The notes under the pieces: generated by a model
Seen by the model: the letters and a program-made list of their open reading frames with translations, nothing else
Database searches by the model: none
What the model was told of the DNA's origin: nothing
Position numbers and translations under genes: made by a program
Assembly (NCBI GenBank): GCA_938082635.1
Contig: CALLLI010000004.1
Location: 1 to 48,043, forward strand
DNA: 48,043 nucleotides
Source of the DNA: an uncultured Verrucomicrobiales bacterium
GTDB lineage: Bacteria; Verrucomicrobiota; Verrucomicrobiia; Verrucomicrobiales; DEV007
Direction of reading: 5' to 3'
In this document: positions 18,551 through 48,043 of the stretch, in pieces
How positions within the stretch are numbered: the stretch's first letter is position 1
Layout: each line of letters begins with the position of its first letter

Positions 18551-18611
18551 TTGGGCTCGCTCGACCGATCGAATCTATTCCACTGAAGACCCTCAAAGTC
18601 CAAGCCCCCTA

Positions 18612-27140: not shown

Positions 27141-27177
27141 TTTTAGTAGAAACCTCCGATATAGGCAGGAAACCATC

Positions 27178-28832: not shown

Positions 28833-28846
28833 ATCCGCTTCTCCAG

Positions 28847-28889: not shown

Positions 28890-28941
28890 CTCCGGCAAAG
28901 AACCCTGGTATAAACAGTCGACCCGACCATTCCCATCACTG

Positions 28942-30120: not shown

Positions 30121-30133
30121 CTAACAATCAACT

Positions 30134-31054
30134 ATGGGAAAAGAACAACCACTCGCCGGCGTGTTTCCGGTTCTGCAATTACCCTATCAAAGCGACGAAT
30201 CGATCGATTGGGAAACGCTCTCCCACGAGATCGATTGGGCCTACGCGAACGGCGCGCATGGCATCGTCGCCGCAATGGTCACTGAGGTTCTCAGGCTAAC
30301 AGATGCCGAGCGCGACGAGCTAGCACAGCGGCTAGTCGAATTCAACGCCGACCGTGGGGCGGTGGTCATGAGCGTCGGAGACGAGAGCACGGTGCAGGCC
30401 GTCCGCCATGTGCGCGCTGCCACCGCCGCTGGGGTCGATGCGCTGATGGCGATCCCGCCCGTGGCGACCCGCGCGCTACTCGCGGAGAAAGTCCGCTATT
30501 TCGAGGCCATCATCGAGGCCACCGACTTGCCGGTCGTCGTGCAAGATGCCAGCGGTTATGTCGGCGAGCCCCTGCCGGTCGAGACTCAAGCGGACCTACA
30601 CCGGCGCTTCGGCGCGCGCGTGTTGTTCAAGCCCGAGGCCCAGCCGCTCGGCCCCAATCTGAGTGGCCTGCGCGACGCGGGCGGCCCCGGCTTGAAAGCG
30701 TTCGAGGGCAGCGGCGGCATCGCCCTGCTCGACTCGTATCAGCGTGGGATTTGCGGGACAATGCCGGGCACCGAAATCGTCTGGGCCATCCGCGCCGAGT
30801 GGGACGCGCTGGAAGCTGGAGATCTTGAGCGTGCCACCGCGTTGCAAGGCATCATTGCCCCACTCGTCTCGTTGCAACAGGGGCTCGACGGCTTCCTCAG
30901 TGTGGAGAAAGCGCTGCTGCACCGGCAGGGCGTTTTCCCGAACCGAATCATCCGTGGCCCAGTCGGCTTCAGCCTCGATCCGGAAACCGAACGCGAGGTG
31001 TTCCGCCTGTTCGATCTGCTCTGCGAACTCTGTGGGAGGGAAGTGCCTTCGTGA
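30134..31054 (+). CDS. DapA-family lyase/aldolase
   Basis: This 306-residue protein has the TIM-barrel fold of the dihydrodipicolinate synthase/N-acetylneuraminate lyase family. The Schiff-base lysine is Lys166 in VLFKPEA, after a hydrophobic strand at about residue 160. The usual YNxP tyrosine segment is replaced by VVVQDASGYVG, so the proton-relay tyrosine of classical members is not in its normal place, though Tyr142 is close. In this setting it probably splits or dehydrates the 2-keto-3-deoxy acid made by the dehydratase upstream, with pyruvate as a likely product. Its gene starts 13 bases after the dehydratase stop. Confidence 0.85.
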   Translation: MGKEQPLAGVFPVLQLPYQSDESIDWETLSHEIDWAYANGAHGIVAAMVTEVLRLTDAERDELAQRLVEFNADRGAVVMSVGDESTVQAVRHVRAATAAGVDALMAIPPVATRALLAEKVRYFEAIIEATDLPVVVQDASGYVGEPLPVETQADLHRRFGARVLFKPEAQPLGPNLSGLRDAGGPGLKAFEGSGGIALLDSYQRGICGTMPGTEIVWAIRAEWDALEAGDLERATALQGIIAPLVSLQQGLDGFLSVEKALLHRQGVFPNRIIRGPVGFSLDPETEREVFRLFDLLCELCGREVPS

Positions 31055-31103
31055 GACTGCCGGTAGCGACACACACCAGTCGCATAACACTTATAAGAAA
31101 ACC

Positions 31104-32465
31104 GTGATTCGACACACCCGATTTCCCGGACTGCGCGCGCGCTTCGGTGTGTCCCGTTGGGACATCACGCCGGGTCTGGAGGTGTGCGTGAAGAACTGGG
31201 GCGCCACTGATCGCTGGTTCGCACGCGGCGTGCACCGCACTCTCACCGGCACGGCTCTGGCGATCGCGGAGGATGACGCCAGCCGACCGTTGCTGCTCAT
31301 CACTCTTGACCTCGGCTGGTGGCGTGCCCGCGCCGACGCCGATCGACTTCGACTATCATTGTGTGACACGCTGTGCCTACCAGAGGAGAACCTGATCATT
31401 CATCTCACACACACGCACTCGGGACCGCTGCTCGATTCCGAGCCGCCGCCCGAGGCAAATCCAAAGGCGACCGTCGCCTATTTGGACACGCTCCGAGAGA
31501 CCTGTATCGCGGGAGCGAAAGCTGCGATCGACGATCTGCAAGAATCTTCGCTGTTGTTTCACACAGGCGCATGCGGGCTCGCCACGCACCGCGATCTTCC
31601 GGACCCAGAGAATCCGCAGCGCCTGCTGACGGGTTTCCATCCGCATGAGCCAGCGGATGACACGCTCGTCGTGGCACGTATCTTCGATGAGGCGAACCGC
31701 ACCCGCGCGACCTTGGTCAACTATGCCTGTCACCCCACAACGCTGGCGTGGGAGAACGATCTGATATCGCCGGACTTTCCCGGCGCGATGCGTGAAGTGG
31801 TCGAGGCCTCAACAGATGCCCCGTGCTTGTTTTTACAGGGAGCCTCCGGTGAATTCGCGCCGTGTGAGCAGTATGTTAGGGACACAACGACGGCGGACAG
31901 ACACGGGCGCGTGCTCGGTCATGCGGCGCTGAGTTCGCTGGAGATGCTCGCGCCCGGAACGGGCGACATGGCCTATGACGGCGCGCTGGAATCCGGTGCG
32001 CCGCTCGCCCTCTGGAGTCCGGCGACCGGGGAGCTTCCCCAAAGCGTCTCCGCCAAGGCGCCCTCCGTCGATCTGCCGTTGAAGCCCGATCTTCCGAGCA
32101 TCGCCGCCATCCGTGCGCAGATGGCAGACGCGCCCGACGGATTCGCCTACGAGCGTCTCGTCCGCCAGCTCCGCGTGCGCGAGTCGGTCGGCGAGGGCCC
32201 GGCCTCGCCCGAGCAGATCTGGACGTGGAAACTTGGCGCAGGCGCACTGGTCGGCGTGCCTTTCGAGGCCTATTCAATCCTCCAGCGCGAACTGCGCGCG
32301 GAGTGTCCGCAGCTGCTCGTGCTAAACCTCGCCAATGGCCATCTTGGCTACCTGCCGCCTGCACCACTCTATCGCGGCCGCTCCCTCTACACCGTCTGGC
32401 AGACGCCCTATGCCGAGGGCTCGCTAGAAGCCGTTACCAGTCTAGCGAAGACCTTGTTAACATAA
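31104..32465 (+). CDS. Neutral/alkaline ceramidase-like hydrolase
   Basis: The most sensible start is the GTG at 31104, directly before the conserved FGVSRWDITP; the open frame upstream overlaps the DapA-family gene. The 453-residue protein resembles the N-terminal domain of neutral/alkaline non-lysosomal ceramidases, an amidase fold with zinc: LIIHLTHTHSGPL holds the HxHSGP motif, NYACHPTT another metal histidine, and FLQGASGEFAP follows. These relatives hydrolyse amide bonds. No signal peptide is seen, so it is probably cytosolic, unlike true ceramidases. Its place in a sugar-acid operon suggests it acts on a small soluble substrate. That substrate cannot be told from the sequence. Confidence 0.75.
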   Translation: MIRHTRFPGLRARFGVSRWDITPGLEVCVKNWGATDRWFARGVHRTLTGTALAIAEDDASRPLLLITLDLGWWRARADADRLRLSLCDTLCLPEENLIIHLTHTHSGPLLDSEPPPEANPKATVAYLDTLRETCIAGAKAAIDDLQESSLLFHTGACGLATHRDLPDPENPQRLLTGFHPHEPADDTLVVARIFDEANRTRATLVNYACHPTTLAWENDLISPDFPGAMREVVEASTDAPCLFLQGASGEFAPCEQYVRDTTTADRHGRVLGHAALSSLEMLAPGTGDMAYDGALESGAPLALWSPATGELPQSVSAKAPSVDLPLKPDLPSIAAIRAQMADAPDGFAYERLVRQLRVRESVGEGPASPEQIWTWKLGAGALVGVPFEAYSILQRELRAECPQLLVLNLANGHLGYLPPAPLYRGRSLYTVWQTPYAEGSLEAVTSLAKTLLT

Positions 32466-32480
32466 CCTTACAAGTCAAGC

Positions 32481-34256
32481 ATGAGCATGAATCTCTCACC
32501 AATGTTAGCCCAATCGACGTTCAGTCTGCAGCGCTGGGACTACCTAGCGTTCGCACTGTTTTTTATCATCCTGTCGCTGATCGGGTACCGAGCAGGGCGC
32601 GGTGAACGAGCGAGCTCGGAGGAGTATTTCCTGGCCGGCAAGAAACTGCCTTGGTATGTCGTCGGCGGCTCGTTCATCGCGTCGAATATCTCGAGCGACC
32701 AGTTCATCGGCATGGTCGGGGCGGCGATGGTCTACGGCGTGTGCGTCTCGCTCTACGAGTGGGCAAATGTCGCCACCTTCGCCATCCTGATCTGGTTCTT
32801 CATACCGTTCCTGCTCGGGTCAAAAGTATTCACCACGCCGGAGTACCTCGAGAAGCGATTCAGTCCGTCCGTACGGACAGTATTTGCCGTCGTGACGATC
32901 ATCAGCAATGTCGTCGCGTTCCTGGCCGCTGTACTCTACGGCGGAGCGCTCGCCTTGCACGAACTGTTCGGCTGGGCGTTGTGGCCATCGATCATCGGAC
33001 TCGGCATCGTCGCCGGGATATGGGCGGTGTATGGCGGCCTGAGTTCGGTCGCCTGGACGGACCTATTCACTGTTGCTGTCATGATCGTGGGTGGCATCGT
33101 CGTGACTGTGCTAGGCCTCTTGGCCCTCGCGCCAGAGGGCGGCGGTGTTGTCGACGGTTTCCGGGTCATGCTTGAGCGCAACGAGGCAACAAGCGGCCAG
33201 TGGGCGGAAGCTGTTCAAAGCAATACCCAAGAGCTAACGGGCACGAACACCTACAACCGCCTGTCCGTGATTCAGCCAGCGACTCATCCACTGACACCGG
33301 CGATTAGCATGTTCACTTTTCTGCTGTCCGTCAGCCTCTGGTACAACGTGCTCAATCAATTCATGATCCAGCGCGTGCTCGGCGCGAAGGATATGTATCA
33401 TGCTCGGATGGGGATCGTGTTCGCGGGTTGGCTCAAAGTCATTCTGCCTATCATCACGATCTTGCCGGGGATGATCCTGTTTGCCATGAAACCGGAAATC
33501 CTGCTGATCGAACCGTGGGGAGACGTCAAGCCGGCCGCCGACAAGGGCTATGTGCAACTCCTCCAAGAACTCGTCCCCGCCGGATTGCGCGGGCTGTTCC
33601 TCGCCGCCCTGTTCGGCGCGATCCAATCGACGGTTAACAGCGTGTTGAACTCGACCTCGACCATCATCACCTTCGACATCTACCGCCGACTCTGGCGCCC
33701 GCAGTCGACGGACCGGCAACTGGTGGCTGTCGGCGTCGTGGCCTCCGTTGTCGTCCTCATGGTTGCGATCGTGATCGGAAGATTCATCGGCGATCTGGGC
33801 GGCGGACTCTTTGAGTATGTCATCTCGCTCTACGTGCTCTTCGCACCTCCCTTCGCAGCGGTCTTCCTGCTGGGGATCCTGTGGAAACGTGTCACGGCCC
33901 CGGCGGCGCTGGCCACCGTGATCGTCGGCATGGTGGCCGGTCTCGGGTTAAAAACCTTCCTTACCAACAGCTCGGATTACCCAGCTTGGCTCAGTTCATT
34001 TCCAAACCAGGCCTCGATTCTCTACCTCATCAGCATGGCGACCTGCGTGATTGTCACCTTTGCCACCCGCACGCCAAAACCAGAGCAGGTCACCGATCAA
34101 CTCTGCATGAACTGGAAACAGCTGAACATCTTCAGCAATCTCGGCGATCGCTGGTATAAGAGCGTGGTCACCTGGTGGCTTGCTTACTCGATCGTGATCG
34201 TTCTTCTAATTCTGTATTTCTCTGGCCTCTTCTTCCCCACAGCCGCTGCGAAATAA
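32481..34256 (+). CDS. Sodium/solute symporter (SSS family)
   Basis: This 591-residue protein is a sodium-coupled transporter of the SSS family, with about 13-14 hydrophobic segments. It opens with LALFFIILSLIGYRAGRG, and the family sequence SSEEYFLAGKKLPWYVVGGS followed by ASNISSDQFIGMVG is in the first loop and helix. LFGAIQSTVNSVLNSTSTI is the conserved helix-8/9 region that contacts sodium. SSS members next to sugar-acid catabolic genes import the substrate across the inner membrane. The gene starts 15 bases after the ceramidase-like gene and is 11 bases before the dioxygenase gene, consistent with one operon. Confidence 0.93.
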   Translation: MSMNLSPMLAQSTFSLQRWDYLAFALFFIILSLIGYRAGRGERASSEEYFLAGKKLPWYVVGGSFIASNISSDQFIGMVGAAMVYGVCVSLYEWANVATFAILIWFFIPFLLGSKVFTTPEYLEKRFSPSVRTVFAVVTIISNVVAFLAAVLYGGALALHELFGWALWPSIIGLGIVAGIWAVYGGLSSVAWTDLFTVAVMIVGGIVVTVLGLLALAPEGGGVVDGFRVMLERNEATSGQWAEAVQSNTQELTGTNTYNRLSVIQPATHPLTPAISMFTFLLSVSLWYNVLNQFMIQRVLGAKDMYHARMGIVFAGWLKVILPIITILPGMILFAMKPEILLIEPWGDVKPAADKGYVQLLQELVPAGLRGLFLAALFGAIQSTVNSVLNSTSTIITFDIYRRLWRPQSTDRQLVAVGVVASVVVLMVAIVIGRFIGDLGGGLFEYVISLYVLFAPPFAAVFLLGILWKRVTAPAALATVIVGMVAGLGLKTFLTNSSDYPAWLSSFPNQASILYLISMATCVIVTFATRTPKPEQVTDQLCMNWKQLNIFSNLGDRWYKSVVTWWLAYSIVIVLLILYFSGLFFPTAAAK

Positions 34257-34267
34257 GAATCCTAACC

Positions 34268-35167
34268 ATGAACAAAGAATCTAACATGAAGCCGCATGGC
34301 CTAAACGATGAACAGTTAGCGCAGTATCGCGAAGAAGGTTTTGTCGTTGTCCCCGGGCTGTTCGGACGCGAGGACCTTCGCGCGGCAGAAGCTGCCATTG
34401 ATGAGTTGACCGAACGGGCCGTCAATGATCCGGCCAACCTCGCCAAGGTGCTAGAGTTGGAGCCGGAGCCGGTCGACGGGAGGCGGATTCCCCGCCGCCT
34501 CTACAACCCGTTTCTCGCTCACGAGGGATTCCGCTCGATCGCCACCCATGAGAAACTGTTGAGTTGTATCGAAGATCTCGTCGGTCCGCACATCGACATT
34601 CAGCACAGCAAATTGAACATGAAACCCGCCCATGTGGGATCCGTCGTCGAATGGCATCAGGACCTGCCGTTCTTTCCGCATACCAATGATGATCTCGTCA
34701 CCACCTTGGTCTATCTCGACGATGCGACGACGGAAAACGGCTGCCTCCAGGTGATGCCGCGCATGCATGGCCGTTACCTGGAGCATGTGGACGAGGAAGG
34801 ATACTTCACTGGCATCATCTCGCAGGAACTCGATGCCATGCCGATTCCATTGGAGGGTCGGGCCGGGAGCGTCATCTTCATGCACCCGTTGACGCCACAC
34901 GGCTCGTTGCCTAACACGTCGCCCAAAGCGCGGCGGACACTTATATTCGAGTTTCGCGCATCGGATTCATTTCCGATCTACTTCGGTGAATTGACGCACC
35001 GAAACGAGCAGACCGCAGTGCATGTCAAAGGCGATCAGCCGCGCACCGCGCGCGTCGGCGGTCCGACGCCTGTCTTGCCGCTGCTGCGTGATGCCATCGC
35101 GTCAATCTATGACCTGCAGGAAAGGTCGAAGGCGAAAGGCGCAAAGCAGCCGGAGTTCGCCAAATGA
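34268..35167 (+). CDS. Phytanoyl-CoA dioxygenase (PhyH) family protein
   Basis: The start is placed at 34268 (MNKESNMKPHGLNDEQ); a start at 34286 would be six residues shorter. The 299-residue protein is an iron(II)/2-oxoglutarate dioxygenase of the PhyH family. HQD (His130, Asp132) and the distal His211 in PLTPHGSLPNTS supply the iron triad, and Arg222/223 in ARRTLIFEFR probably binds 2-oxoglutarate. These enzymes hydroxylate small or lipid substrates. Its presence between the symporter and the 3-hydroxyacyl-CoA-type dehydrogenase suggests that the compound is hydroxylated before or during oxidation. The substrate is not known. Confidence 0.88.
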   Translation: MNKESNMKPHGLNDEQLAQYREEGFVVVPGLFGREDLRAAEAAIDELTERAVNDPANLAKVLELEPEPVDGRRIPRRLYNPFLAHEGFRSIATHEKLLSCIEDLVGPHIDIQHSKLNMKPAHVGSVVEWHQDLPFFPHTNDDLVTTLVYLDDATTENGCLQVMPRMHGRYLEHVDEEGYFTGIISQELDAMPIPLEGRAGSVIFMHPLTPHGSLPNTSPKARRTLIFEFRASDSFPIYFGELTHRNEQTAVHVKGDQPRTARVGGPTPVLPLLRDAIASIYDLQERSKAKGAKQPEFAK

Positions 35168-35227
35168 TTGTCCGATCCGATTCTAACATGATAGAACATA
35201 ACTTCTCAACAAACCGAGGGCTGAGCC

Positions 35228-36247
35228 ATGACGAGCGATGAAACAACGCGGTGTGATGAAGTGATCGCCGTGGTCGGACTCGGTGCGCTTGGTCGCGGTA
35301 TCGTGGCGTGTTGCCTGGCACGTGGATTCGCCGTTGTCGGGATCGACCCCGAGCAAAGCCACCGCGAATCGCTGAGGGATTACCTCCCTGAAGCCGCCGC
35401 GCAGTGTCTTGAAGCCGGCGTTATCGATGCCGATCATTCAGCGGACTGGCAAGCGCGCCTGGAATTGTCAGGAGATCTCGCATCCATCGATGGGGCATGC
35501 CTTGTCATCGAAGCGATCTCGGAGCATCTCCCATCCAAGAAGCAACTGCTAGAGCAAATGGAGGAGTCGATCCCCGCGGATGTTCCCATTGGCAGCAACA
35601 CATCGGCATTTCCGATCACGGCCTTGCAGGAAGGGTGCAATCATCCCGAGCGTATCTTCGGCATGCATTGGTCGAGCCATGGGCACGTGACGCGATTCAT
35701 GGAATTGACACCTGGCGAACAGACTTCGTCGGAGACCATGGCGTTCGCGGCGAAGATGGCGGAGCGGCTCGGCAAGGAGCCGGCTATTCTGAAGAAAGAT
35801 ATCCCGGGCTTCCTCTGTAACCGCATCGGCTATGCGATGTATCGCGAGGCAGTGCACCTGCTAGAGTCCGGTGTCGCGGATGCCGCTACCATCGACCGTT
35901 CGTTCCGTAACTCAGTTGGCCTATGGGCAGCCATGTGTGGACCGCTTCGCGTGATCGATGTGATGGGAGGCGGTGCGTTTTATGCCGAGTCGATCAAAGA
36001 TGTCTTGCCGACGCTTGCGAACTCAACCGAGCTGCCAGCCACCCTGCAGTCGTTCATCGATCGCGACGCCAAAGGCCCAAAGAACAACATTGGGTTTTTC
36101 GATTACAATGGAGGCGACCAACCCGATGCGGCCGAATGGGCCAAACGGTTCACCGCAGCCATCCTCGCCACCAAGCAATACCAAGATCAGTTCATTCCAT
36201 GCGATGAGCCGACGCAGTTGGGGGAACCACGAATGAACACCAATTAA
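35228..36247 (+). CDS. 3-hydroxyacyl-CoA dehydrogenase family NAD-binding protein
   Basis: This 339-residue protein has the N-terminal Rossmann motif VVGLGALGRG (17-22, GxGxxG), then GSNTSAFPI, ERIFGMHW with the conserved His, and MELTPG. A C-terminal helical dimerisation domain contains DIPGFLCNRIGYAMYREA. The family includes 3-hydroxyacyl-CoA, L-gulonate 3- and L-carnitine dehydrogenases. In this operon, a sugar-acid or carnitine-type 3-hydroxy acid substrate is more likely than a fatty-acyl-CoA. It closes the operon 60 bases after the PhyH gene. A palindrome that could end transcription lies beyond it. Confidence 0.85.
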   Translation: MTSDETTRCDEVIAVVGLGALGRGIVACCLARGFAVVGIDPEQSHRESLRDYLPEAAAQCLEAGVIDADHSADWQARLELSGDLASIDGACLVIEAISEHLPSKKQLLEQMEESIPADVPIGSNTSAFPITALQEGCNHPERIFGMHWSSHGHVTRFMELTPGEQTSSETMAFAAKMAERLGKEPAILKKDIPGFLCNRIGYAMYREAVHLLESGVADAATIDRSFRNSVGLWAAMCGPLRVIDVMGGGAFYAESIKDVLPTLANSTELPATLQSFIDRDAKGPKNNIGFFDYNGGDQPDAAEWAKRFTAAILATKQYQDQFIPCDEPTQLGEPRMNTN

Positions 36248-36433: not shown

Positions 36434-37444
36434 TTAAGTTCTGATGGCTCTGCTGCGGTCTTCGTAAAGTGCTAGGTAAGCCGCCTTCGCTTCTTGGCTC
36501 AACAAGGAGCGCTCGACCATGGCTACAACTGCGTCCTTCTGCTGGTCAAACACGTTTAGGTCTTGCAGCGCTCTTTCTTCTGTGATGCCGAAGCGCGTGG
36601 CGAGTTCGATGAAGTCGGGACGCTTGTAGAAAGCGTTGCGTCGGTAGCTCTCAGTTTCGAAGTCGCCCTCGAACAGGTCGAGGGCAGTACGCGTTTCTTC
36701 CGGAAGGTGGATGCTCGTTGCGAGTAGGTCGTAGGCGGGAGACATGGAGAAGTCCCCGAAAGGAGTTTCCAAAAGGGAGAAGTTCTTTAGGTGAGCGTCG
36801 CCATTCCCAATGACGTAGTTGAACACGATCAAGCGGAATAGCTTCTCTACATCAATCCGGTAGGACGGGCTGAAGCGCTGCAGGATTTGCCCTGCCTCCT
36901 CATAGGAGGAGTCGTACTTGTAATTCGAGCCAGCAGTATCCGGTGAGCGACTGGAGAGCTGGCAGAAATCTTCCTGTGCTAGGGGCAAGCCTCTCTCGTC
37001 CCGGTCGAATCGGCGGGTGATGTAGGCAAGTTCGCCGTCGGCGAAGTAAACTTGGCCGTTGGCGGCAGTTCTGATCCCGAATACTTGGCTGGCGAGCTGC
37101 ATGCTGACGTGCTCGTTGGCCGGAATGTCAGCGGTGAACATCGGGTAGTTCGCTAGCGGGACGGGTTTGAGGATGTAATCGCCTCGCGTTTCGGTGGGGA
37201 CGAGTTTGTTGCGATCAAGACGGAGGGATATCTTGTCCTGCACGCCGGAGATCGAGATGCGCCCTGCGGTTTCGCGCTGGATGGTGAGGAAGTCCTCCTT
37301 ACGAAAATCCAACACCGGCCGAACGCTGCGCCCGCCCCACAGTTCACGCAATGCGGTGGCCGAGAAATTGACGCCTACCCTGGTAGGCTGAAGCGTGCAT
37401 AGGCATCGCTCTTTTGGGATGAAGTCTGGAGTGTTGTTAGGCAT
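36434..37444 (-). CDS. hipT: HipT-like serine/threonine kinase toxin
   Basis: This 336-residue protein is the kinase part of HipA without its N-terminal subdomain. The Gly-rich loop carries GRISISGVQDK with the SIS motif (Ser64, Ser66), the hallmark of HipT in E. coli HipBST, where these serines are autophosphorylated. The catalytic loop is GNGDAHLKN and the metal-binding segment SPAYDLL. HipT kinases phosphorylate tRNA synthetases (TrpS in E. coli) and stop growth; the target here is unknown. Its ATG overlaps the end of the HipS-like gene by eight bases. The three genes form an autoregulated minus-strand operon. It converges with the catabolic operon. Confidence 0.85.
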   Translation of the reverse strand: MPNNTPDFIPKERCLCTLQPTRVGVNFSATALRELWGGRSVRPVLDFRKEDFLTIQRETAGRISISGVQDKISLRLDRNKLVPTETRGDYILKPVPLANYPMFTADIPANEHVSMQLASQVFGIRTAANGQVYFADGELAYITRRFDRDERGLPLAQEDFCQLSSRSPDTAGSNYKYDSSYEEAGQILQRFSPSYRIDVEKLFRLIVFNYVIGNGDAHLKNFSLLETPFGDFSMSPAYDLLATSIHLPEETRTALDLFEGDFETESYRRNAFYKRPDFIELATRFGITEERALQDLNVFDQQKDAVVAMVERSLLSQEAKAAYLALYEDRSRAIRT

Positions 37445-37787
37445 CTTCTTGAACCTCCTTGGCTTCGATGATTTCCCGCACGGTCACAGCGCCAATCGTA
37501 TCACTGTGTGAGGTCTTGATGAGACGGGTGAATGCGTCGGCGGGATCGATCTTCAACGCACGGCATTGTAGGTCTTTGGCAGAGCCCTCGGAAAGTAGCC
37601 CGTGTAAGAAGGGGAATAGTTCAGCGGCGAGATAGGGTTCGGGACGCAGGGGCAATGTCAGGCTGATCGGGCACGCATCGGCTGAGGCGAGATATGCTGA
37701 GGCGTAAGCGTAGCAGTACGTGCCGTCGTTGAGTCGTTCAAGTTCGCCAGTTTCCCGCCCGCGCATGTAGACTTGGGCGCGACTCAT
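37437..37787 (-). CDS. hipS: HipS-like antitoxin (HipA N-terminal domain protein)
   Basis: This 116-residue protein corresponds to the N-terminal subdomain of HipA as a separate gene: it starts MSRAQVYMRGRETGELERLNDG and ends soon after IGAVTVREI. In E. coli HipBST this small protein (HipS) is the antitoxin that inhibits the kinase. It shares the ATGA overlap with the HTH gene upstream (37784-37787) and overlaps the kinase gene downstream. The separation is clean, with stop and start codons in place, and there is no sign of a broken hipA. That supports a true three-component system. Confidence 0.8.
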   Translation of the reverse strand: MSRAQVYMRGRETGELERLNDGTYCYAYASAYLASADACPISLTLPLRPEPYLAAELFPFLHGLLSEGSAKDLQCRALKIDPADAFTRLIKTSHSDTIGAVTVREIIEAKEVQEDA

Positions 37788-38029
37788 GACTTATTCGACG
37801 TTGCGTTCGTGACAGGGAGAATGGCTCTGGGCTTCACGGACAGTTTGAGCCCGAGCGGATCGAGCACTTTCAGCAAGACATCGAGGGTCGGGTTGCCCTT
37901 GCCGGACTCGATGTCACTGACCGTGTGCACGGCAACACCTGCGAGTTTGGCAAAATCGATCTGGCTGATTTCGAGATGCCGACGGCGCTCTCGGAGCAAT
38001 CGGCCAATTTTTTCAGATGTGGTATTCAC
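37784..38029 (-). CDS. hipB: HipB-like helix-turn-helix antitoxin/repressor
   Basis: This is a small XRE-type HTH protein, with RLLRERRRHLEISQIDFAKL and VHTVSDIESGKGNPTLDVLL as the binding helices. It matches the HipB family. The start is set at the GTG at 38029, giving 81 residues; a TTG at 38065 would extend it by 12 residues of poor resemblance. A palindrome overlaps this start and another lies upstream, suggesting that the protein, alone or with HipS/HipT, represses its own operon. It probably augments HipS neutralisation of the kinase. Confidence 0.8.
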   Translation of the reverse strand: MNTTSEKIGRLLRERRRHLEISQIDFAKLAGVAVHTVSDIESGKGNPTLDVLLKVLDPLGLKLSVKPRAILPVTNATSNKS

Positions 38030-38040
38030 TAAAATGAATA
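38023..38040 (-). promoter_or_regulatory. HipB-type operator 1
   Basis: TATTCA-N6-TGAATA, a perfect inverted repeat with six-base arms, overlaps the GTG start of the HTH gene. The identical arms recur 61 bases upstream, with a related central sequence. This is the layout of an autorepressor operator. Confidence 0.65.
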
Positions 38041-38283: not shown

Positions 38284-38589
38284 GTTCGCGGTTTTGGCGG
38301 GATCATGTCGCAAAGAGAGCGGCCTGCCCCAGGACTTGCACGTTTTCCTCTCCCGCTTCTTAAGAAGGCCAGTCGATGCGTTCTTGGAAAGGAGAAGATG
38401 GTAGCTGATAGTCCAGCCCTCTGGTGGCGAATAGTCTTTGTTTTTTACCTGTTCTAAATAGCTGGAGGAGAGGTTTGCCGCCTTGTTGATCCATTTCAAT
38501 TCGAGTAAGCGGCTTTCCCGGTCCCCGGTGTTTTCGACAACCAAGTCGATCTGCGTCTTCCCTTCGATGGTCCGTCGCCCTTCGTCAGA
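38266..38589 (-). pseudogene. AAA+ ATPase (DUF4143/DUF234-like) C-terminal remnant
   Basis: The minus strand holds an open frame with TQIDLVVENTGDRESRLLELKWIN, split here as TQIDLVVENT and RLLELKWIN. This is the D-x(n)-E-x-K pattern of the nuclease-like tail of archaeal-type AAA+ ATPases. The frame has no plausible start codon and no upstream ATPase domain, being stopped at 38590. It is a leftover tail. It lies between the hip module and the promoter of the secreted-protein cluster, where 38197-38815 otherwise has no intact gene. Confidence 0.5.
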
Positions 38590-38668
38590 TCACCATGACA
38601 GGCTTCCTCTATCAATGATAGCTCGGATTCCTAATCATTGGGTGCCGGAACCACTGGTGAACAGCGTG

Positions 38669-38711
38669 AAAGTCGGATTTGTACATGAAAAACGGACCTT
38701 CACTACATTCA
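38669..38711 (+). promoter_or_regulatory. Shared regulatory module 3, upstream of PEP-CTERM gene
   Basis: AAAGTCGGATTTGTACATG (38669-38687) differs from the other two copies at two of 19 positions. After 16 bases comes TACATTCA, partly like TTCATACT, and at offset 62 comes TACAAC (38731) where the others have TATAGG and TATAAA. The gene start is at 38816, so the leader would be about 80-100 bases. Confidence 0.6.
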
Positions 38712-38815
38712 CCCCAGGGGAATCCACCGCTACAACATGTCAATCTAGGGACTTCACGTCAGCCCTTCAAACAGTCCCGGCTCACGCACTCAACTAAAAT
38801 AAGAACAAGCAAACG

Positions 38816-39598
38816 ATGAGAACGAGAAACCTAACAAAAACGACCCTGTGCCTCGCAGGAGCTACCCTTATCGCGGCCACAAGCGCTTCGTTCGCCTCGA
38901 CGGTTTCCTTCGGCAAGCTCACCCCGTTCACTGGCGGCGACGCTGGCGAGGGGCTCGACCTGAGCGGGAACATCATCTACGCCTTCAACCTAGGCGGGAC
39001 AGCCCAAACGGTTCAGGGGGTGACCTTCATCGCTGCGGACAGGACCGCTCCGCCAGTGGGGATCACCACCACCGGGACTGCGGCCAATCAATTCAACTAC
39101 TCGACAGCAAATCCGGGTGGTGCCAGCGGTGCCAATTACGGTGCCTCTGCCAACGACATCGCCCTGGGGAGCATTGTAAACACCGTTTGGTACGATTCGA
39201 ACTGGACCTTCGACGTGGCCGTGGAGCTCGGCGCGCAGTACGAGGTTCAACTCATTCACCAGGAGAGCTTTTTTCCGTTCCAGGGAGAGCCGGCTCGCAA
39301 TTTTGACGTCTCCGTTGAGACTGCGTTTTCGGTTGGGACAACCCTAGCCGTCGACGAACTGGTTTTGGGGGAGGAAACGAATGGCGCGAATTCGGCGGGA
39401 GCCGACGCCGGACTCGTGTACTCCTACAGCTTCACGGCCACCGACAATTCCTTCCGGATGGCGCTGGACGACTCCCCGACCGGCGCTGACGGGAACGCGA
39501 TCCTTGCAGCTGTGACTCTGAGGCAGGTGCCGGAGCCATCCACGTTTGCACTGTTTGGCATCAGCTTCCTTGGCCTGTTCCTGCGCCGATCCCGCTAA
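38816..39598 (+). CDS. PEP-CTERM secreted protein with malectin-like domain
   Basis: This 260-residue protein has a signal peptide (LAGATLIAATSASFAS) and ends with VPEPSTFALFGISFLGLFLRRSR, shortened here to VPEPSTFALFGIS and a hydrophobic run with RRSR. This is a classical PEP-CTERM sorting signal, cut by exosortase at the outer surface. The single domain between (about 30-240) has a beta-rich, malectin-like pattern (ELGAQYEVQLIHQESFFP, RNFDVSVET), suggesting carbohydrate binding. It has the conserved block LTPFTGGDAGEGLDLSG shared with the larger neighbour. It follows shared regulatory module 3 and is the first gene of the secreted-protein cluster. Confidence 0.8.
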   Translation: MRTRNLTKTTLCLAGATLIAATSASFASTVSFGKLTPFTGGDAGEGLDLSGNIIYAFNLGGTAQTVQGVTFIAADRTAPPVGITTTGTAANQFNYSTANPGGASGANYGASANDIALGSIVNTVWYDSNWTFDVAVELGAQYEVQLIHQESFFPFQGEPARNFDVSVETAFSVGTTLAVDELVLGEETNGANSAGADAGLVYSYSFTATDNSFRMALDDSPTGADGNAILAAVTLRQVPEPSTFALFGISFLGLFLRRSR

Positions 39599-39652
39599 AC
39601 GAACCGCCACTCGCGTGCATTCCAACAACCAGAGAAAAATGTAAGTAAAACG

Positions 39653-42454
39653 ATGAGAACGAGAAACCTAACAAAAGCTACCCGGTGCCTTACTGGGGCT
39701 TCCCTTTTGACGGCCATGAATGCTCTGTTCGCTTCCACCGTCCCGCTGGGCACGCTCACCCCGTTCACCGGCGGCGACGCTGGCGAGGGTCTCGACCTGA
39801 GCGGGAATATCATCTACGCCTTCAACCTGGGCGGATTTGGCGGAATCGAGACCATTCAGGGCATCGACTTTGTCGACGCGAGCGTGTTCGATTCGCCTGA
39901 AGGTATCACGACCCCTGAGGATACCCTGGAATTCGACTATTCGAACGCAAATCCAGATGGGGCCAACGGTGCCGACTACGGTCTCTCTGCAGATGACGAC
40001 GCCCTGGAAAGCGTGGTGAACTCCGTTTGGTACAACTCGAACTGGGCATTCGACATGGACGTCGTGCCCGGCACGCAGTACCAACTTCAGCTCATTCTCC
40101 AGGAAAGCTTCTTTCCTCAGCAGGGAACGACGCAGCGCAATTTCGACGTCTCGGTGGAGACGGCAACGCCTGATACGCTGAGTCTCGCTATCGACGAGCT
40201 AGTTCTGGGGCAGGAAACGAACGGCGCGAATTTGGATGGAGCCGACACCGGACTCGTATACACCTACACCTTCACGGCCACCGATAGTTCCTTCCAAGTG
40301 GCGCTGGACGATTCTCCGGAGGGTGCTGACACAAACGCAGTTCTCGCTGCCGTGACTCTGGAAGAACTAGGGACTGACACAACGCCGCCTGACATCTCTA
40401 CCCTGAGTCCGGCCAATGGCGGCGCGGAGGTGCCGACCATTTCGGACCTCGTGATCACCTTCGACGAGAGCATCGGCTTCGGTACTGGAAACATTACCAT
40501 TAAGGAGTCTGTCAGTGACGCCGTGGTGGAAACCTTCGACGTGACGACCTCGCCGAACCTTCTCCGAAGCAGTGAAAGTGTTAGCATTAACCCTAGCAGA
40601 AATCTGATGGCGAACACCGGTTACTATGTACAGATCGATCCTGAGGCCATCACCGATTCCTCCGGCAACCCTTTCGCGGGGATCTCCGACACCACCACGT
40701 GGAATTTCACGACCGCTGGGAACGATGTGACTGAGCCCGCCGTCGGCTCCGTGGATAGCCCGACTAACGGAGCCACTGACGTGTTGCCTGACGACAGACT
40801 AACGCTCACCTTTGATGAGAAGGCCCAGAAGGGCACAGGCAACATCGTCATTCGGCGGACCGACGACGCCATGGTGATCGACACCATCGACGTGACCACA
40901 GCCGCCGTCACCATCAGTGACAACCAAGTCACAGTCATGCCTACCGCCGCACTTCCGTTCCAGACCGAGTTGTATATTGAGATCGACCCTGGCGCCTTCC
41001 AGGACCTGGCCGGCAACCCGTTTGCAGGGATCAGTGACGAGACGACCTGGAACTTCACCACCACCGCTGCCCCGTTTGTCCTGGGCTCGCTCACCCCGTT
41101 TACGGGTGGCGACGCCGGAGAGGGTCTCGACTTGAGCGGGAACATCATCTACGCCTTCAATCTAGGCGGGCCAGACAAGACCGTGCAGGGCATCGACTTT
41201 GTCGGTGCGAGCGTGGACGACCCGCCTGAAGGCATCGCCCCCGCTGAGGGCACCCTGGAATTCGACTATTCTAACGCAAATCCGGATGCAGCCAACGGCG
41301 CGGACTACGGTCCTTCTGCCGACGACGACGCCCTGGAAGTCGTGGTGAATCACGTTTGGTACAACGCCAATTGGGCGTTTGACTTGGAAGTCGTGCCGGG
41401 CACCGAATACAAGCTTCAGCTCATCTTCCAGGAAAGTTGGTTCCCTGCCCAGGGAACGGAGATCCGCAATTTCGACATCTCGGTGGAGACCGTGCCGGGA
41501 ACCTTGACCCTTGCCGTCGACGACCTTGAGCATGGGCTCGAGACGAACGGGGCTAGTGAGGATGGATCGGACTTCGGCGTGATCTACAATTACACGTTCA
41601 CGGCCGCCGACAGTTCCTTTCAGGTGGCTCTGGACGACTCTCCTATCGGTGCTGACACCAACGCAGTCCTTGCTGCGGTAACGTTGGAAGAAGTGACTCC
41701 TTTCAAGGTCACCGAGATCGACCACGACGCGGCTAACGATACCGTGGCCCTCACCTGGAACAGCCGGGCTCATAAGCTTTACGACCTTCTCAGCGCCATT
41801 GATCTTTCCACCCCTCCTGCCGCGTGGGACGTCTACGAAGGTCACGGAGACATCACCGCCTCTGGCAATGGCACCAACACCCTGACAGATGTCGTGGCCT
41901 CCGGAACCCCGCGCTTCTTCGTGGTGCGAGAAAAGGACTTCCCGCCGTCCTTACAGGCGGATTTCGAAGATGGAGCAGATGGCTGGACCATCGAGACTAA
42001 CGGTATCGTCAGCAACACGACGTGGGAAATTGGCCCGCCCGTCGCCGGCCCTTCGGGACCCCACAGCGGAGCCAACGTGTTCGGCACGGACCTGGACGCC
42101 GATTTCGAGGCCGGGATCGCCAATCCAGACACCAACCTCGGGATTGGGCTACGCTCTCCCGTGGTCGACATCGCCGAGCTGAGCCGTGCGACCCTCACTT
42201 TCTGGTATTTCCTCGAAACCAGCGACCAATCTGGCGGGCGGCTGAACATCTTGCGGGGCGATGACGGGTCTCCGATCCCAGAGCTCACTCCGGCATTGTT
42301 TCTATCCGAAAGGAACACGGACGACTGGACCGAGTTCAGACTCAGGCTTCCCCAGGAGGCCCTAGACGCAGGCAGCATCATCATCGAGTTCGAGTTCCTC
42401 AGCAGCGATTCCGCGGGTGCCGGTTGGTTTATTGACGACGTCGAGATCCGATAA
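39653..42454 (+). CDS. Large secreted multidomain protein, paralogue of the PEP-CTERM protein
   Basis: This 933-residue protein starts with the same signal peptide region (MRTRNLTKATRCLTGASLL). It has two copies of the malectin-like domain (about 25-240 and 479-680, both opening LTPFTGGDAGEGLDLSG). Between them are two SbsA/Big_5-type Ig-like domains (about 243-356 and 358-473, VITFDESIGFGTGNI, LTFDEKAQKGTGNIV). A C-terminal region (about 770-933, FEDGADGWTIETNG ... GWFIDDVEI) is like MAM or immune-inhibitor-A binding domains. There is no PEP-CTERM signal at the end, unlike its neighbour. Its ATG and the preceding bases repeat those of the neighbour gene, showing a tandem duplication. Confidence 0.8.
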   Translation: MRTRNLTKATRCLTGASLLTAMNALFASTVPLGTLTPFTGGDAGEGLDLSGNIIYAFNLGGFGGIETIQGIDFVDASVFDSPEGITTPEDTLEFDYSNANPDGANGADYGLSADDDALESVVNSVWYNSNWAFDMDVVPGTQYQLQLILQESFFPQQGTTQRNFDVSVETATPDTLSLAIDELVLGQETNGANLDGADTGLVYTYTFTATDSSFQVALDDSPEGADTNAVLAAVTLEELGTDTTPPDISTLSPANGGAEVPTISDLVITFDESIGFGTGNITIKESVSDAVVETFDVTTSPNLLRSSESVSINPSRNLMANTGYYVQIDPEAITDSSGNPFAGISDTTTWNFTTAGNDVTEPAVGSVDSPTNGATDVLPDDRLTLTFDEKAQKGTGNIVIRRTDDAMVIDTIDVTTAAVTISDNQVTVMPTAALPFQTELYIEIDPGAFQDLAGNPFAGISDETTWNFTTTAAPFVLGSLTPFTGGDAGEGLDLSGNIIYAFNLGGPDKTVQGIDFVGASVDDPPEGIAPAEGTLEFDYSNANPDAANGADYGPSADDDALEVVVNHVWYNANWAFDLEVVPGTEYKLQLIFQESWFPAQGTEIRNFDISVETVPGTLTLAVDDLEHGLETNGASEDGSDFGVIYNYTFTAADSSFQVALDDSPIGADTNAVLAAVTLEEVTPFKVTEIDHDAANDTVALTWNSRAHKLYDLLSAIDLSTPPAAWDVYEGHGDITASGNGTNTLTDVVASGTPRFFVVREKDFPPSLQADFEDGADGWTIETNGIVSNTTWEIGPPVAGPSGPHSGANVFGTDLDADFEAGIANPDTNLGIGLRSPVVDIAELSRATLTFWYFLETSDQSGGRLNILRGDDGSPIPELTPALFLSERNTDDWTEFRLRLPQEALDAGSIIIEFEFLSSDSAGAGWFIDDVEIR

Positions 42455-42509: not shown

Positions 42510-43793
42510 ATGAGCAACAAGGAACAGAACAGCGATAACAAGAATCCAATCGAGAACCTGGAACAAGCCGGGATGTCGCGGCGGGGCTTCTTACATGGAG
42601 TCGGCGGTGCTAGCGCCTTTCTCGGTATGACCGGATTGGCTGGCCAGGCGGGAGCTCAAGAGCCCCCGAAAGATGCCGACGGAAAGGTCATTCCCGGTTT
42701 TGAAAAAGGTCAGGATGATCCAAACGCAGCGAAAGACTGGCAGCCTGTCTCTGATCGCAAGATCCGTGTTGGCATCGCGGGATACGGCCTCTGCGCGTTC
42801 GGCGCGTCCTTCTTCTATCAAAACCACCCCAACGTCGACGTGGTGGCCGCCACGGATCTCGACCCCGAGCGGTGTGCCGGCCTAGCAAAGGCAGTAGGTG
42901 CAAAGAAGACCTACCCGTCCTGCGAAGAGATGATCAAGGACAAGAGCATCGAGGCGATCTACATTGCGACCGATGCGCCGAGTCATGCGCGCCTGGCCAT
43001 CATGGGCCTGGAGCATGACAAGCATGTGGTCTCTGCCGTGCCCGCCGTGTTTGGGTTTGAAGCGGAGGATGAGGCCGAGAAACTATTCAACGCCGTTAAG
43101 AAGAGCGGCATGAAGTACATGATGAATGAGACGTCCACGTTTCATGCGGATTGCTATGCAAAGCGCCTGCAATATCAAGCGGGCGCCTTGGGTAAGATCG
43201 TTTATTCCGAGGGCGAATACTATCATGACTTCGGGCCCAAGGGACTTCCTGGCTACAATCCCAAGAGCGGCAAGGTTGATCTCAACGGCTGGCGAAAGGC
43301 TCTCCCTCCGATGTGGTATCCCACCCACGCGACCGCCTACTACGTTTCCATCACCGGCGGCCGCTTCACCGAAGTATCGGCGCTGGGTACGCCCGGTCTC
43401 TACCCCGAATACAAGGACGGCAACAACCAGCACAAGAACCCCTTCGGCACGGAAATCGCCATGCTCAAGACCAGTGAGGATGGCATCTCACGAATGGCGG
43501 GAAGCTGGGATATGAAGAATGCCCATGGTGAACAAGGCCGGGTCTATGGACAAAAGCCCCATGACAAAAGCATCAAGGGAGATCGTCCACCTCTGCCACC
43601 AGGCGTTGACGGCGGCGGGCATGGCGGCTCTCATGGGCACCTAACGAACAATTTCATTGAGTCCATCCTCCTGGACAAGACGCCCATTGTGCATGTGGGG
43701 GACGCCCTGAACATGACCCTGGCCGGCGTGGTTGCTCACCAGTCTGCGCTTAAAGGTGGCGACTGGATGAAGATCCCGCAGTATGATTTGTGA
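42510..43793 (+). CDS. Tat-exported Gfo/Idh/MocA-family oxidoreductase
   Basis: This 427-residue protein has a twin-arginine signal: SRRGFLHGVGGASAFLGMTG at about 25-45, then the mature domain. The Rossmann part reads IRVGIAGYGLCAFGASFF, then DVVAATDLDPERCAGLA and SIEAIYIATDAPSHARLAI, which is the Gfo/Idh/MocA family's NAD-binding fold. The C-terminal substrate domain follows (GALGKIVYSEGEYYHDFG). Exported members keep a tightly bound cofactor and act on sugars or glycosides. A purine-rich AGAAAG lies upstream of the start. It lies between the malectin-like pair and the CotH protein and may share their regulation. Confidence 0.88.
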   Translation: MSNKEQNSDNKNPIENLEQAGMSRRGFLHGVGGASAFLGMTGLAGQAGAQEPPKDADGKVIPGFEKGQDDPNAAKDWQPVSDRKIRVGIAGYGLCAFGASFFYQNHPNVDVVAATDLDPERCAGLAKAVGAKKTYPSCEEMIKDKSIEAIYIATDAPSHARLAIMGLEHDKHVVSAVPAVFGFEAEDEAEKLFNAVKKSGMKYMMNETSTFHADCYAKRLQYQAGALGKIVYSEGEYYHDFGPKGLPGYNPKSGKVDLNGWRKALPPMWYPTHATAYYVSITGGRFTEVSALGTPGLYPEYKDGNNQHKNPFGTEIAMLKTSEDGISRMAGSWDMKNAHGEQGRVYGQKPHDKSIKGDRPPLPPGVDGGGHGGSHGHLTNNFIESILLDKTPIVHVGDALNMTLAGVVAHQSALKGGDWMKIPQYDL

Positions 43794-43845: not shown

Positions 43846-46725
43846 ATGAGAACCGCACCCCTGTTTCTAGTCGCGGCTGTGGTTGCGGCCACTGCCAACC
43901 TCGGCACCAGCCAGGCCTTCGGTGCGCCCCAGGCACTGATTTCCGAGTTCCTCGCTGCCAACAGCAACGGTTTGCGTGACGAGGACGGCGACGCGTCGGA
44001 CTGGATCGAAATCCACAACCCCACCGCTGCGACGATCAATCTCGAGGGATGGCATCTGACAGACAACGACGACAATCTCGACAAATGGACGTTTCCATCG
44101 GTGGAGATTGCGCCCGGCGGGTTCCTCATGGTGTTCGCTTCGAAGAAGGATCGGGCGCGGGTCGGCTCCGAGTTGCACACCGACTTTCAGTTGAGCAGCG
44201 GAGGCGAATACCTTGGCCTGGTGCAGCCGGACTTGGGCATCGCCAGCGAGTTCGCCTCTGAGTACCCGACCCAGTTTGCCAACACCTCTTACGGGTTGGT
44301 GCCCAACAAGGGGGCGATGGTTTCGCCGGATGCGAATGCTGATGCAAGCGAAGGATTTCTCCCGGGCTTGGCTCGTTATTTCACGCAGCCGACGCCCGGA
44401 GCGCAGAACGGCATGGCCGTGGCCGACGTCGGTCCCATTGTCAGTCGGGTATCAGAGCCGGAGGGGGCACTCGCTGCGACCCCTCCGTTTTTCACCCGTT
44501 CGTCTTCAATGGGTGTGACCGCCACGGTTAGGCCGACCTCTGAGAGCATTGACGAGGTGTTGCTTCACTACCGCGTGATGTTCGACGCCGAGTTTAAGGT
44601 GCCGATGCTAGACGACGGAGCGCACGGCGACCGCCTTGCTGGCGACGGCGTGTTTGGCGCGACCATCCCGGCCGGAGTTGCCAAGGCCGGGCAAATGCTA
44701 CGCTACCGTATCACGGCATCGGACAGTCAGGACAACACCTCAAGTTGGCCGCCGTTTGCAGACCCGCTGGGCACTCCCGAGTATCTCGGCACGATGGTCG
44801 ATGTTTCGATCACCACGTCATTGCCCGTGTTGCACTGGTTCACCGCGAATGTCTCGGCGGCGGGGACCGTCGGCGGATCGCGGGCGTCCTTGTTTTTCGA
44901 GGGCGAGTTTTATGACAATGTTTGGGTCCACGGTCGCGGCGCCGGAGGTACGGGAGCGGGCTTGAAGTTTGAGATGAATCGCGGCTTCGACTTTCGCCAT
45001 TCGGCCGACGCGCCCCGTGTGCGCCAATTTAATACGCGATCAAGCACGGGAGAAATCGCTGAGCTGATCGCTTACGAACTCTACCACGACGCGCAAACCC
45101 CGACGCCCCAAGCGTTTCCCATGCGCTTTCACCGCAACGGCAGCTTTGTCAGTGTCGATACATTCTTCGATCAAGTGGACGAAACCTTACTCAAACGCAA
45201 CGGGTTGGACGGAAACGGCGCGCTGTATAAGATGTTCAACTCGCTCACGGATCCGGTAGACCGCTCTTATAGATTCTATCGCAACGACAATAACAAACGT
45301 ACGCGCAAGTGGGATTTAGTCCCCGGCGGGCTCTTTGATTTGTTCAAACATGTGCCCGCGTGGGATCTCGATGAGTTGGTTGCTGGTGTTGATGAAGACA
45401 ACCCGGATCGGTATCCGTATGTGATGGACAACGTCGACGTCCCGGCCGTGATCAACTACCTGGCGGCGACGGTCATCAGTTGCGATTACGATCACGAAAC
45501 GCACAACTATTTCATGTATCGCGACAACGACGGAACGGGCCGTTGGCAGGTGATCCCGTGGGACCGTAATATCGCGTTTATTACTCCCGCAAGCGACCCG
45601 ACATCCCACCCGTTTCTTGGAAGCAGTGAGTATGTCCATCGGTCTTGGGCCAACCTTGAGGGCAAATCCGACGAACAGTGGAGTCGACTGACCGACGCGA
45701 TTTACGACAATCCGGTCACCAGGGAAATGTACCTGCGGCGGTTGCGCACGTTGATGGACGAGTTGCTGCAGCCGCCGGGCACGCCGCTTGCCGAACGAAA
45801 GCTGGAAACGCGGCTCGACGAGTTGTCGGCGCTGCTGCAATCGGAGGATCGGAGTCTCGCCTCCAGCGCGCGCGCTATCAAGAACGTCGTCGACGCCCGG
45901 CGCCGTCACCTTTACGTGACGCACAGTGTTGACAATCTAGCAGAGTACCCTGGCGCTGCTGGTATCCCGCACGCTCAATCCGGAAATCCGCAGATCGAGT
46001 TCGGCCCGATTGATTTCAATCCCATCTCGGGCAATCAGGACGAGGAATACATCCGATTGGATAACCCCAACGGCGTGGCGGTCGACCTTTCCAACTGGAG
46101 CTTGGCCGGAGGCGTCGAGCATGCATTTCGACCGGGCACCGTGATTCCGGCAAGCGGTTCGCTCTACGTTTCGCCCAATGTGCTCAGCTTTCTTGCCCGC
46201 ACGACCGAACCGAGCGGTGGCCAGGAGCTTTTCGTTCAGGGCAACTATGAAGGCCACATCTCCAACGCTGGCGAGACCATCCAGCTCGTCGCGCCGGACG
46301 CGGAAATCGTGGCGACCGTTCTCACTCCCGTCGGGCCGTCTGATGCTGACGTTGTCACCTTCCCGATCAATCCGCTAGGAGACGACGATGGCAACGGCAT
46401 CGCCGACCTCATCGATTACGCCACGGGCTCCAGCCGTGGTCTGCCGCCACTCGTGCCGACGGCGAGCTTCGAGACCTACGACATCGGCGGCAGCCTGCAG
46501 ACGAGACTAGCATTGAGCTATCCGATCAACCTCGGTGCCGAGGGCGCCAGCATCGGCATCGAGGCTTCGACCGATCTGAGAACCTGGACCGACACCGCGC
46601 CTAACAAAGAATTCGTCAGCCAAACCAACCTTGGCGACGGCCGCGCACTGGTCACCGTACGCTTCACTTCGCCGATCGGCGACGGCGTGCGGCACTACCT
46701 CCGGCTGCGTGTCGAGCAACTGTGA
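43846..46725 (+). CDS. CotH-kinase protein with lamin-tail domains
   Basis: This 959-residue protein has a signal peptide (PLFLVAAVVAATANLGTS), a first lamin-tail domain (about 28-150, ALISEFLAANSNG, DWIEIHNPTAATINLEGW), a linker, and a CotH protein-kinase domain (about 330-640) with KWDLVPGGLFDLFKHVPAWD and HNYFMYRDNDGTGRWQVIPW, the family's NY.YRD...W.IPWD core. A second lamin-tail domain is at about 715-820 (EYIRLDNPNGVAVDLSNWSL). CotH relatives phosphorylate secreted proteins in spore coats and elsewhere. A role in modifying the surface proteins encoded nearby is an inference. It is 52 bases after the Gfo/Idh/MocA gene. Confidence 0.85.
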   Translation: MRTAPLFLVAAVVAATANLGTSQAFGAPQALISEFLAANSNGLRDEDGDASDWIEIHNPTAATINLEGWHLTDNDDNLDKWTFPSVEIAPGGFLMVFASKKDRARVGSELHTDFQLSSGGEYLGLVQPDLGIASEFASEYPTQFANTSYGLVPNKGAMVSPDANADASEGFLPGLARYFTQPTPGAQNGMAVADVGPIVSRVSEPEGALAATPPFFTRSSSMGVTATVRPTSESIDEVLLHYRVMFDAEFKVPMLDDGAHGDRLAGDGVFGATIPAGVAKAGQMLRYRITASDSQDNTSSWPPFADPLGTPEYLGTMVDVSITTSLPVLHWFTANVSAAGTVGGSRASLFFEGEFYDNVWVHGRGAGGTGAGLKFEMNRGFDFRHSADAPRVRQFNTRSSTGEIAELIAYELYHDAQTPTPQAFPMRFHRNGSFVSVDTFFDQVDETLLKRNGLDGNGALYKMFNSLTDPVDRSYRFYRNDNNKRTRKWDLVPGGLFDLFKHVPAWDLDELVAGVDEDNPDRYPYVMDNVDVPAVINYLAATVISCDYDHETHNYFMYRDNDGTGRWQVIPWDRNIAFITPASDPTSHPFLGSSEYVHRSWANLEGKSDEQWSRLTDAIYDNPVTREMYLRRLRTLMDELLQPPGTPLAERKLETRLDELSALLQSEDRSLASSARAIKNVVDARRRHLYVTHSVDNLAEYPGAAGIPHAQSGNPQIEFGPIDFNPISGNQDEEYIRLDNPNGVAVDLSNWSLAGGVEHAFRPGTVIPASGSLYVSPNVLSFLARTTEPSGGQELFVQGNYEGHISNAGETIQLVAPDAEIVATVLTPVGPSDADVVTFPINPLGDDDGNGIADLIDYATGSSRGLPPLVPTASFETYDIGGSLQTRLALSYPINLGAEGASIGIEASTDLRTWTDTAPNKEFVSQTNLGDGRALVTVRFTSPIGDGVRHYLRLRVEQL

Positions 46726-47065: not shown

Positions 47066-48043
47066 CTAACACCCTGTCGACTCAAGCCCCAGGAGATCCA
47101 GGGCGTGGCGCTGTATCGCTTCGGGGCGCGTCTCTTTGGTGAATGTCGGTATCCCCTTGATTCCCGGTTCAATCCGGTTTCGCACGATTCCCTGCAGACT
47201 GACCATGAGTGTCGCGAAGCTGTGCAATGGGCGCCCGTGGCTGTCCGTCTTTTCGTCTGCCTTTCGCTTCGCCTCAGGTGATTTCTCGACTGGTTCAGCC
47301 TCACATTTGCGCGCAGCCTTGGCTTCGTCTTTATTCTCGTCGGTAAAGAGCATTGGCGCGAGAGCTTCTTTCATGTGCCACTCCACGTAGTATGCTAGCA
47401 TGCATAGAAAGATGTGCGCTCTCACCATCTCTTCTTCTCGATGATGGATCGGGCGCACTCGTAGATCAACGGACTTGAGTGTCCGAAAGGCTCGCTCCAC
47501 GTTGCTGAGCTTCTTGTAAGAATCGACTAGCTCGCCGCTTTCCATTTCGTCCTTGTCGATCTTACCGGCGCGTATGATATAGAAACCATCAATTGCAGCC
47601 TCCTTGATAACGGATTCTTCATTACGCTCGAATTCAAATCCGTCCTCTTCGATCTTTAGCTCATAGTGTTTGAGCATCTTATACTTTCCCACGTCGCGCT
47701 GGATACGCTGTGCGATTCGGTCTTTGCCTCGATAGGCGTTCTTTTTCCGCTGAGTTGCTTTCTGAATTTCTGCTAGTTTGAGTTCGGTGACGGCCATGAG
47801 TTCTATGCGTTTCTCGGCACGTTTCTTTGATAGAGCCGGGTTGTGGCAGACAACCAAGCGTTCCTCTGGGTAACTGGGAGATGCTATCTCGGCCACTCCA
47901 TAGTCATCAAACAGCTCTGGCTGCATCGATCCTTCTTCGACAAGGGCGTTGACCGATTTGTGATTCAAGGCAGAGATCCAGGCTAAGCCGTCAAGATGGC
48001 GTAGATCTTCGTCAATGCGCGCTTGAGTGAGCATCCCTCGATC
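47066..48043 (-). CDS. IS1634-type (IS4 superfamily) transposase, partial
   Basis: The gene is cut by the window end, so 325 or so C-terminal residues are seen. It reads DRGMLTQARIDED at the window edge, the second Asp of the DDE triad, then LVDSYKKLSNVERAFRTLK, the Y-R-E-K box with the catalytic Glu, then VRPIHHREEEMVRAHIFLCM. The DDE transposase catalyses cut-and-paste movement. This end has the stop at 47066. The terminal inverted repeat cannot be defined because only one end of the element is visible, although a short hairpin CGGAAATGG/CCGTTTCCG at about 47014-47052 is a candidate edge. No frameshift is seen in the visible part. Confidence 0.85.
   Translation of the reverse strand, partial: DRGMLTQARIDEDLRHLDGLAWISALNHKSVNALVEEGSMQPELFDDYGVAEIASPSYPEERLVVCHNPALSKKRAEKRIELMAVTELKLAEIQKATQRKKNAYRGKDRIAQRIQRDVGKYKMLKHYELKIEEDGFEFERNEESVIKEAAIDGFYIIRAGKIDKDEMESGELVDSYKKLSNVERAFRTLKSVDLRVRPIHHREEEMVRAHIFLCMLAYYVEWHMKEALAPMLFTDENKDEAKAARKCEAEPVEKSPEAKRKADEKTDSHGRPLHSFATLMVSLQGIVRNRIEPGIKGIPTFTKETRPEAIQRHALDLLGLESTGC

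Follow-up and report, generated by a model that had tools for sequence, protein, structure and literature searches.

A candidate AraC-type operator–promoter module shared by sugar-acid and PEP-CTERM surface-protein genes in an uncultured Verrucomicrobiales bacterium

At the E. coli araBAD promoter, the elements araI1, araI2 and -10 follow one another, the two direct half-sites being spaced by 21 bp and the first CAT box preceding the -10 by 45 bp. The distal half-site is the stronger one for AraC, and AraC also acts as a repressor (PMC4760080). In Proteobacteria, PEP-CTERM genes carry a sigma-54 element associated with PrsK/PrsR, and Verrucomicrobium spinosum has 65 PEP-CTERM proteins with no PrsK, PrsR or PrsT (Haft 2006, PMC1569441).

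The window studied here, meaning the whole analysed stretch of 48,043 nucleotides from an uncultured Verrucomicrobiales bacterium, contains three copies of a module that resembles the araBAD arrangement (Table 1). Both systems feature a strong distal half-site and a weak one at the -35 position; here the half-sites are 22 bp apart, and 47 bp separate the first CAT box from the -10. A gene lying between copies 1 and 2 encodes a regulator predicted to combine, like AraC, a cupin-like sensor with an AraC DNA-binding domain. The locus differs from araBAD in its half-site sequence, in having several island promoters rather than one divergent operon, in the placement of the regulator within the regulated cluster, and in the presence of surface-protein genes among the targets. 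With the PrsK/PrsR/sigma-54 system it shares a conserved element upstream of a PEP-CTERM gene that is tied to one regulator. We consider it highly probable that the module is the operator–promoter of a local class II activator of the AraC family, encoded by the gene between copies 1 and 2.

Table 1. Module elements, candidate regulator and downstream genes in the window
Feature	Position	Strand	Remark
Copy 1 half-site 1	27098-27116	+	Pattern match
Copy 1 half-site 2, TTCATAC	27133-27139	+	Offset as in copy 3
Copy 1 predicted -10, TATAGG	27160-27165	+	Offset as in copy 3
SDR oxidoreductase, first gene after copy 1	27178-27921	+	SDR also behind a site in genome G338
AraC-family regulator, proposed binder of all three copies	27966-28832	+	Pfam HTH_18, PF12833 1.4e-23
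Copy 2 half-site 1	28847-28865	+	Pattern match
Copy 2 half-site 2, TTCATAC	28882-28888	+	Offset as in copy 3
Copy 2 predicted -10, TATAAA	28909-28914	+	Offset as in copy 3
D-galactonate dehydratase family, first gene after copy 2	28942-30120	+	NCBIfam NF010624 333 bits, cut-off 311
Remaining copy 2 run: DHDPS-family lyase, ceramidase-like, sodium-solute symporter, PhyH-like, 3HCDH-like	30134-36247	+	
Copy 3 half-site 1 (distal, strong)	38669-38687	+	0 mismatches to 17 fixed bases
Copy 3 half-site 2 box, TACATTC	38704-38710	+	Offset 35; overlaps expected -35 region
Copy 3 predicted -10, TACAAC	38731-38736	+	Offset 62
PEP-CTERM protein, 260 aa, first gene after copy 3	38816-39598	+	PF07589 1.2e-6; TIGR02595
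Big_5 / malectin-like secreted protein, second gene after copy 3	39653-42454	+	PF13205 5.6e-30, PF11721 5.5e-6
Gfo/Idh/MocA oxidoreductase	42510-43793	+	PF01408 1.6e-13; homologues directly after sites elsewhere
CotH kinase with lamin-tail domains	43846-46725	+	PF08757, PF00932; homologue in genome G254 after its own site

Sequence, spacing and conservation of the module

The half-site 1 pattern AAAGTCGGATTTnTnCATG, with 17 fixed bases, occurs three times, always in this contig. A pattern search of the organism's own assembly (6.33 Mb, 472 contigs, 89% complete) returned no other occurrence at up to two mismatches, and no matches are expected in shuffled sequence. Eight assembly matches at three mismatches were set aside as background, the reversed-pattern control also giving eight. 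Further copies may be missing from the incomplete assembly. An earlier note on this DNA had reported the copy at 38669, AAAGTCGGATTTGTACATG, as a 17/19 match, with a second block at offset 35 and TACAAC at offset 62. Its coordinates are correct, the 17/19 match holds against the copies at 27098 and 28847 and is far above chance, and both offsets recur in all three copies. The assembly-wide scan did not bear out the possibility, raised in the same note, that the 19-mer is a common background repeat unlinked to promoters: only the three copies were found, each of them promoter-proximal.

An ungapped alignment of 31 sites from the window and related genomes reveals how conservation is distributed. 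Pairwise identity is 90% in half-site 1, 67% in the half-site 2 box and 51% in the -10, and the flanks on either side fall to 27%, which is random. Spacing between the blocks is fixed, without insertions or deletions. The same contrast, 0.89 versus 0.31-0.36, appears among the orthologous sites that precede the galactonate dehydratase gene. Half-site 2 is degenerate, with no visible box A, which counts against the operator–promoter reading; in the contig its box takes the form TnCATnC, and its CAT box follows that of half-site 1 by 22 bp. Within the predicted -10, T62 is kept in 10 of 12 sites and A63 in 11.

These patterns weigh upon the idea that the module is a dispersed repeat, or was left behind by segmental duplication, and has no regulatory role. 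The PEP-CTERM and malectin genes do share a duplicated part, and the island looks horizontally acquired, both of which would suit such an origin. Against it, the module alone is conserved within random flanks, and the sites stand upstream of unrelated genes in the orientation of those genes, mostly about 70-175 bp before the start codons. We therefore assign this explanation almost no probability.

Genes downstream of the three copies

Only 12 nt separate the end of the predicted -10 of copy 1 from the SDR start codon, so the leader would be a few bases long (27160-27178). This near-absent leader counts against the operator–promoter reading. In G338, a site matching copy 1 lies 247 bp upstream of the SDR gene. 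The gene order of the run behind copy 2 is largely retained at three other loci (L051, L053 and L054). Between this catabolic run and copy 3, a HipA-like gene (PF07804) and a probable XRE-type partner occupy the minus strand (36434-38040) as a toxin-antitoxin-like module.

For copy 3, the earlier note had treated the downstream PEP-CTERM and malectin-like features as one gene. A PEP-CTERM gene does come first, but the malectin-like protein is encoded separately, by the second gene. No malectin domain was detected in the former, and neither Pfam nor NCBIfam identified a PEP-CTERM end in the latter. Their close head-to-tail order suggests that the Gfo and CotH genes would also be read from the promoter at 38669. 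The PEP-CTERM and malectin-like genes share a duplicated region of ~700 bp in several blocks of 64-84% identity (38811-41692), with a third partial copy inside the malectin-like gene. An IS1634-family transposase (47066-48034) adjoins this surface-protein operon at the contig end. Elsewhere in the window, a 46-nt inverted repeat (18362-18407 / 18514-18559) contains CCCAGGGC blocks and is 85% complementary, with arms 106 nt apart.

PEP-CTERM is the first gene after a site in the window and in three other genomes. This recurrence would fit a general promoter element of PEP-CTERM or surface-protein genes, of the PrsR/sigma-54 kind or served by an alternative sigma factor, that operates independently of any AraC protein. 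However, the module marks only one of the 18 PEP-CTERM genes here, and most sites precede enzymes. No -24/-12-like match was detected within 300 bp upstream of the gene at 38816, nor any sigma-54-like match with up to three mismatches across 38340-41011. In this assembly, which is 89% complete, the best TIGR02915 (PrsR) score fell short of the 502.6 cut-off at 383 bits. As for an alternative sigma factor, conserved blocks extending over 62 bp exceed the length of a -35/-10 pair. The lack of a sigma-54-like element and of PrsR above cut-off, together with the single marked gene among 18, thus indicates that the module is not a general PEP-CTERM promoter, and we judge such a role very unlikely. 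Sequence comparison instead appears to place one surface operon within a sugar regulon.

The candidate regulator and its sites in other genomes

The regulator, 288 aa long, features an AraC-type double helix-turn-helix domain, with AdpA, MarA and AraC domains as its PDB matches, and its predicted structure has a mean pLDDT of 83. In a structure search of this model (VIA-align 2), the sensor domain, spanning model residues about 1-168, matched BgaR (Z 15.3), RhaR (13.6) and AraC (12.6) at the level of fold only. BgaR, an AraC-type lactose sensor, is the best match (6nwh, 157 residues, rmsd 3.0). The regulator is only 17-18% identical to BgaR and has other targets, whereas a galactose-type substrate would fit the island enzymes. 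A GH43 protein behind a site in another genome resembles galactan 1,3-beta-galactosidases of known structure; this likeness and the galactonate dehydratase would both point to a galactose-type substrate. The inducer is probably a galactose-type sugar or acid. The viral contigs searched contained no relative of the regulator.

The regulator and the module occur together well beyond this window. Regulators 59-77% identical were found at six loci (Akkermansiaceae and Verrucomicrobiales MAGs, Rubritalea and Luteolibacter); at every one, the motif lies at zero or one mismatch directly behind the regulator gene, and some of these loci carry further copies. The named strain Rubritalea profundi (L052) has both the regulator and the site. 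Among 387 genomes of the order, the two-block module was found in 11 of 11 with a close regulator orthologue (E <= 1e-89), compared with 18 of the 376 others. The hypergeometric P of 5e-14 overstates this association, given the relatedness of the genomes and the linkage of many sites to the regulator gene. Of the eight genomes with zero-mismatch modules, seven have the regulator. One locus (L111, G254:C24) contains two regulator copies and eight sites in 36 kb on one strand, each promoter with its own gene run. In four genomes (G338, G374, G290 and G336), some sites lie on contigs other than that of the regulator, which argues against mere linkage, though draft contigs may still adjoin. A point against the proposed reading is that three genomes (G332, G297 and G333) have sites with no regulator detected, perhaps owing to incomplete assemblies. 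One-mismatch matches in genomes lacking the regulator fall mostly within long open frames and were treated as chance.

The first genes after the sites encode galactonate dehydratase, Gfo/Idh/MocA, PEP-CTERM, malectin/Big_5, CotH-like, SDR and GH43 proteins, and in another genome the module precedes a PEP-CTERM and malectin pair at 69% and 66% identity. This recurrence before the same gene types supports the earlier proposal, which had named no regulator, that surface proteins, a CotH kinase and a Gfo enzyme are co-regulated with the sugar-acid pathway. The surface proteins may serve in capture outside the cell.

More distant orthologues display a different arrangement. Where regulators are 38-46% identical, the site (roughly GTYGRAAAARTRCA, then 20 bases and CATTC) is located at or just before the regulator's own start codon and faces the opposite way. 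At seven of these loci (L013, L014, L015, L017, L055, L060 and L061) the gene divergent to the regulator is homologous to the window's Gfo gene, and a TAG-type hexamer occurs at the offset of the window's -10 at four (L013, L014, L055 and L058). In both G116 and G111 (one contig each), the site with zero mismatches has no second copy. In the simplest history, a single regulator would have served a single Gfo target before extending to several island promoters.

A site spanning the regulator's own start codon suits autorepression, and AraC itself represses (PMC4760080). The same regulator might hence act at the same sites mainly by repression that sugar relieves, or in both modes as AraC does. 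Yet every site stands upstream of its -10 and has half-site 2 where a -35 would be; none overlaps the -10 or the start. A generic sigma-70 scan returned nothing at the sites, and the lack of a good -35 hexamer suits an activator-dependent promoter. We regard repression as the main mode, or dual control, as improbable.

Under the favored activator mechanism, a regulator dimer would bind two direct half-sites 22 bp apart, a strong distal one (AAnGTCGGATTTnTnCATg) and a weak proximal one (TnCATTC) that overlaps the -35 region, and would recruit RNA polymerase to the -10 at offset 62. The N-terminal domain would sense a sugar or sugar acid that probably belongs to the galactose series. Three promoters would thereby be switched on: that of the SDR gene and the regulator itself, that of the galactonate dehydratase, lyase and symporter run, and that of the PEP-CTERM, malectin-like, Gfo and CotH run. 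Sequence comparison shows the sites and their geometry, how well they are conserved and that they accompany the regulator. This architecture would further predict that the regulator binds and activates rather than represses, that the inducer is of the type named above and that transcription continues into the Gfo and CotH genes.

Island history and significance

The galactonate dehydratase is 91-93% identical to its counterparts in genomes of another family and 71-76% identical within its own, and searches of the three remaining genomes of the genus did not recover it at the threshold used. For a PtsI-like control gene on this contig (1399-3159), identity is 70-85% inside the genus and does not exceed 54% outside it. 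This contrast suggests that the catabolic island (27966-36247) was horizontally acquired. Going by these identities, exchange between families, with regulator and operators moving along with the island, is the most likely history. A bolder and rather doubtful extension is that the island moves horizontally as a unit and that its one sugar-sensing regulator, through private promoters, controls PEP-CTERM and malectin-like surface proteins jointly with the catabolic pathway they match; PEP-CTERM proteins would then take part in substrate capture in Verrucomicrobiota, as a counterpart of Bacteroidota SusC/D loci.

Control of this kind is known and ordinary; here it involves an unexpected set of genes and a bacterial group that has been studied little, the distinctive aspects being a PEP-CTERM gene inside a sugar regulon and probable horizontal transfer. 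A limited search of open-licence papers identified no described regulon of this sort in Verrucomicrobiales, and the locus offers a concrete candidate regulator–operator pair for the order. The locus also provides a hint of how a PEP-CTERM gene may be controlled in Verrucomicrobiota, a phylum rich in PEP-CTERM proteins, and knowing which ligand the regulator senses would give a clue to what the surface proteins do.
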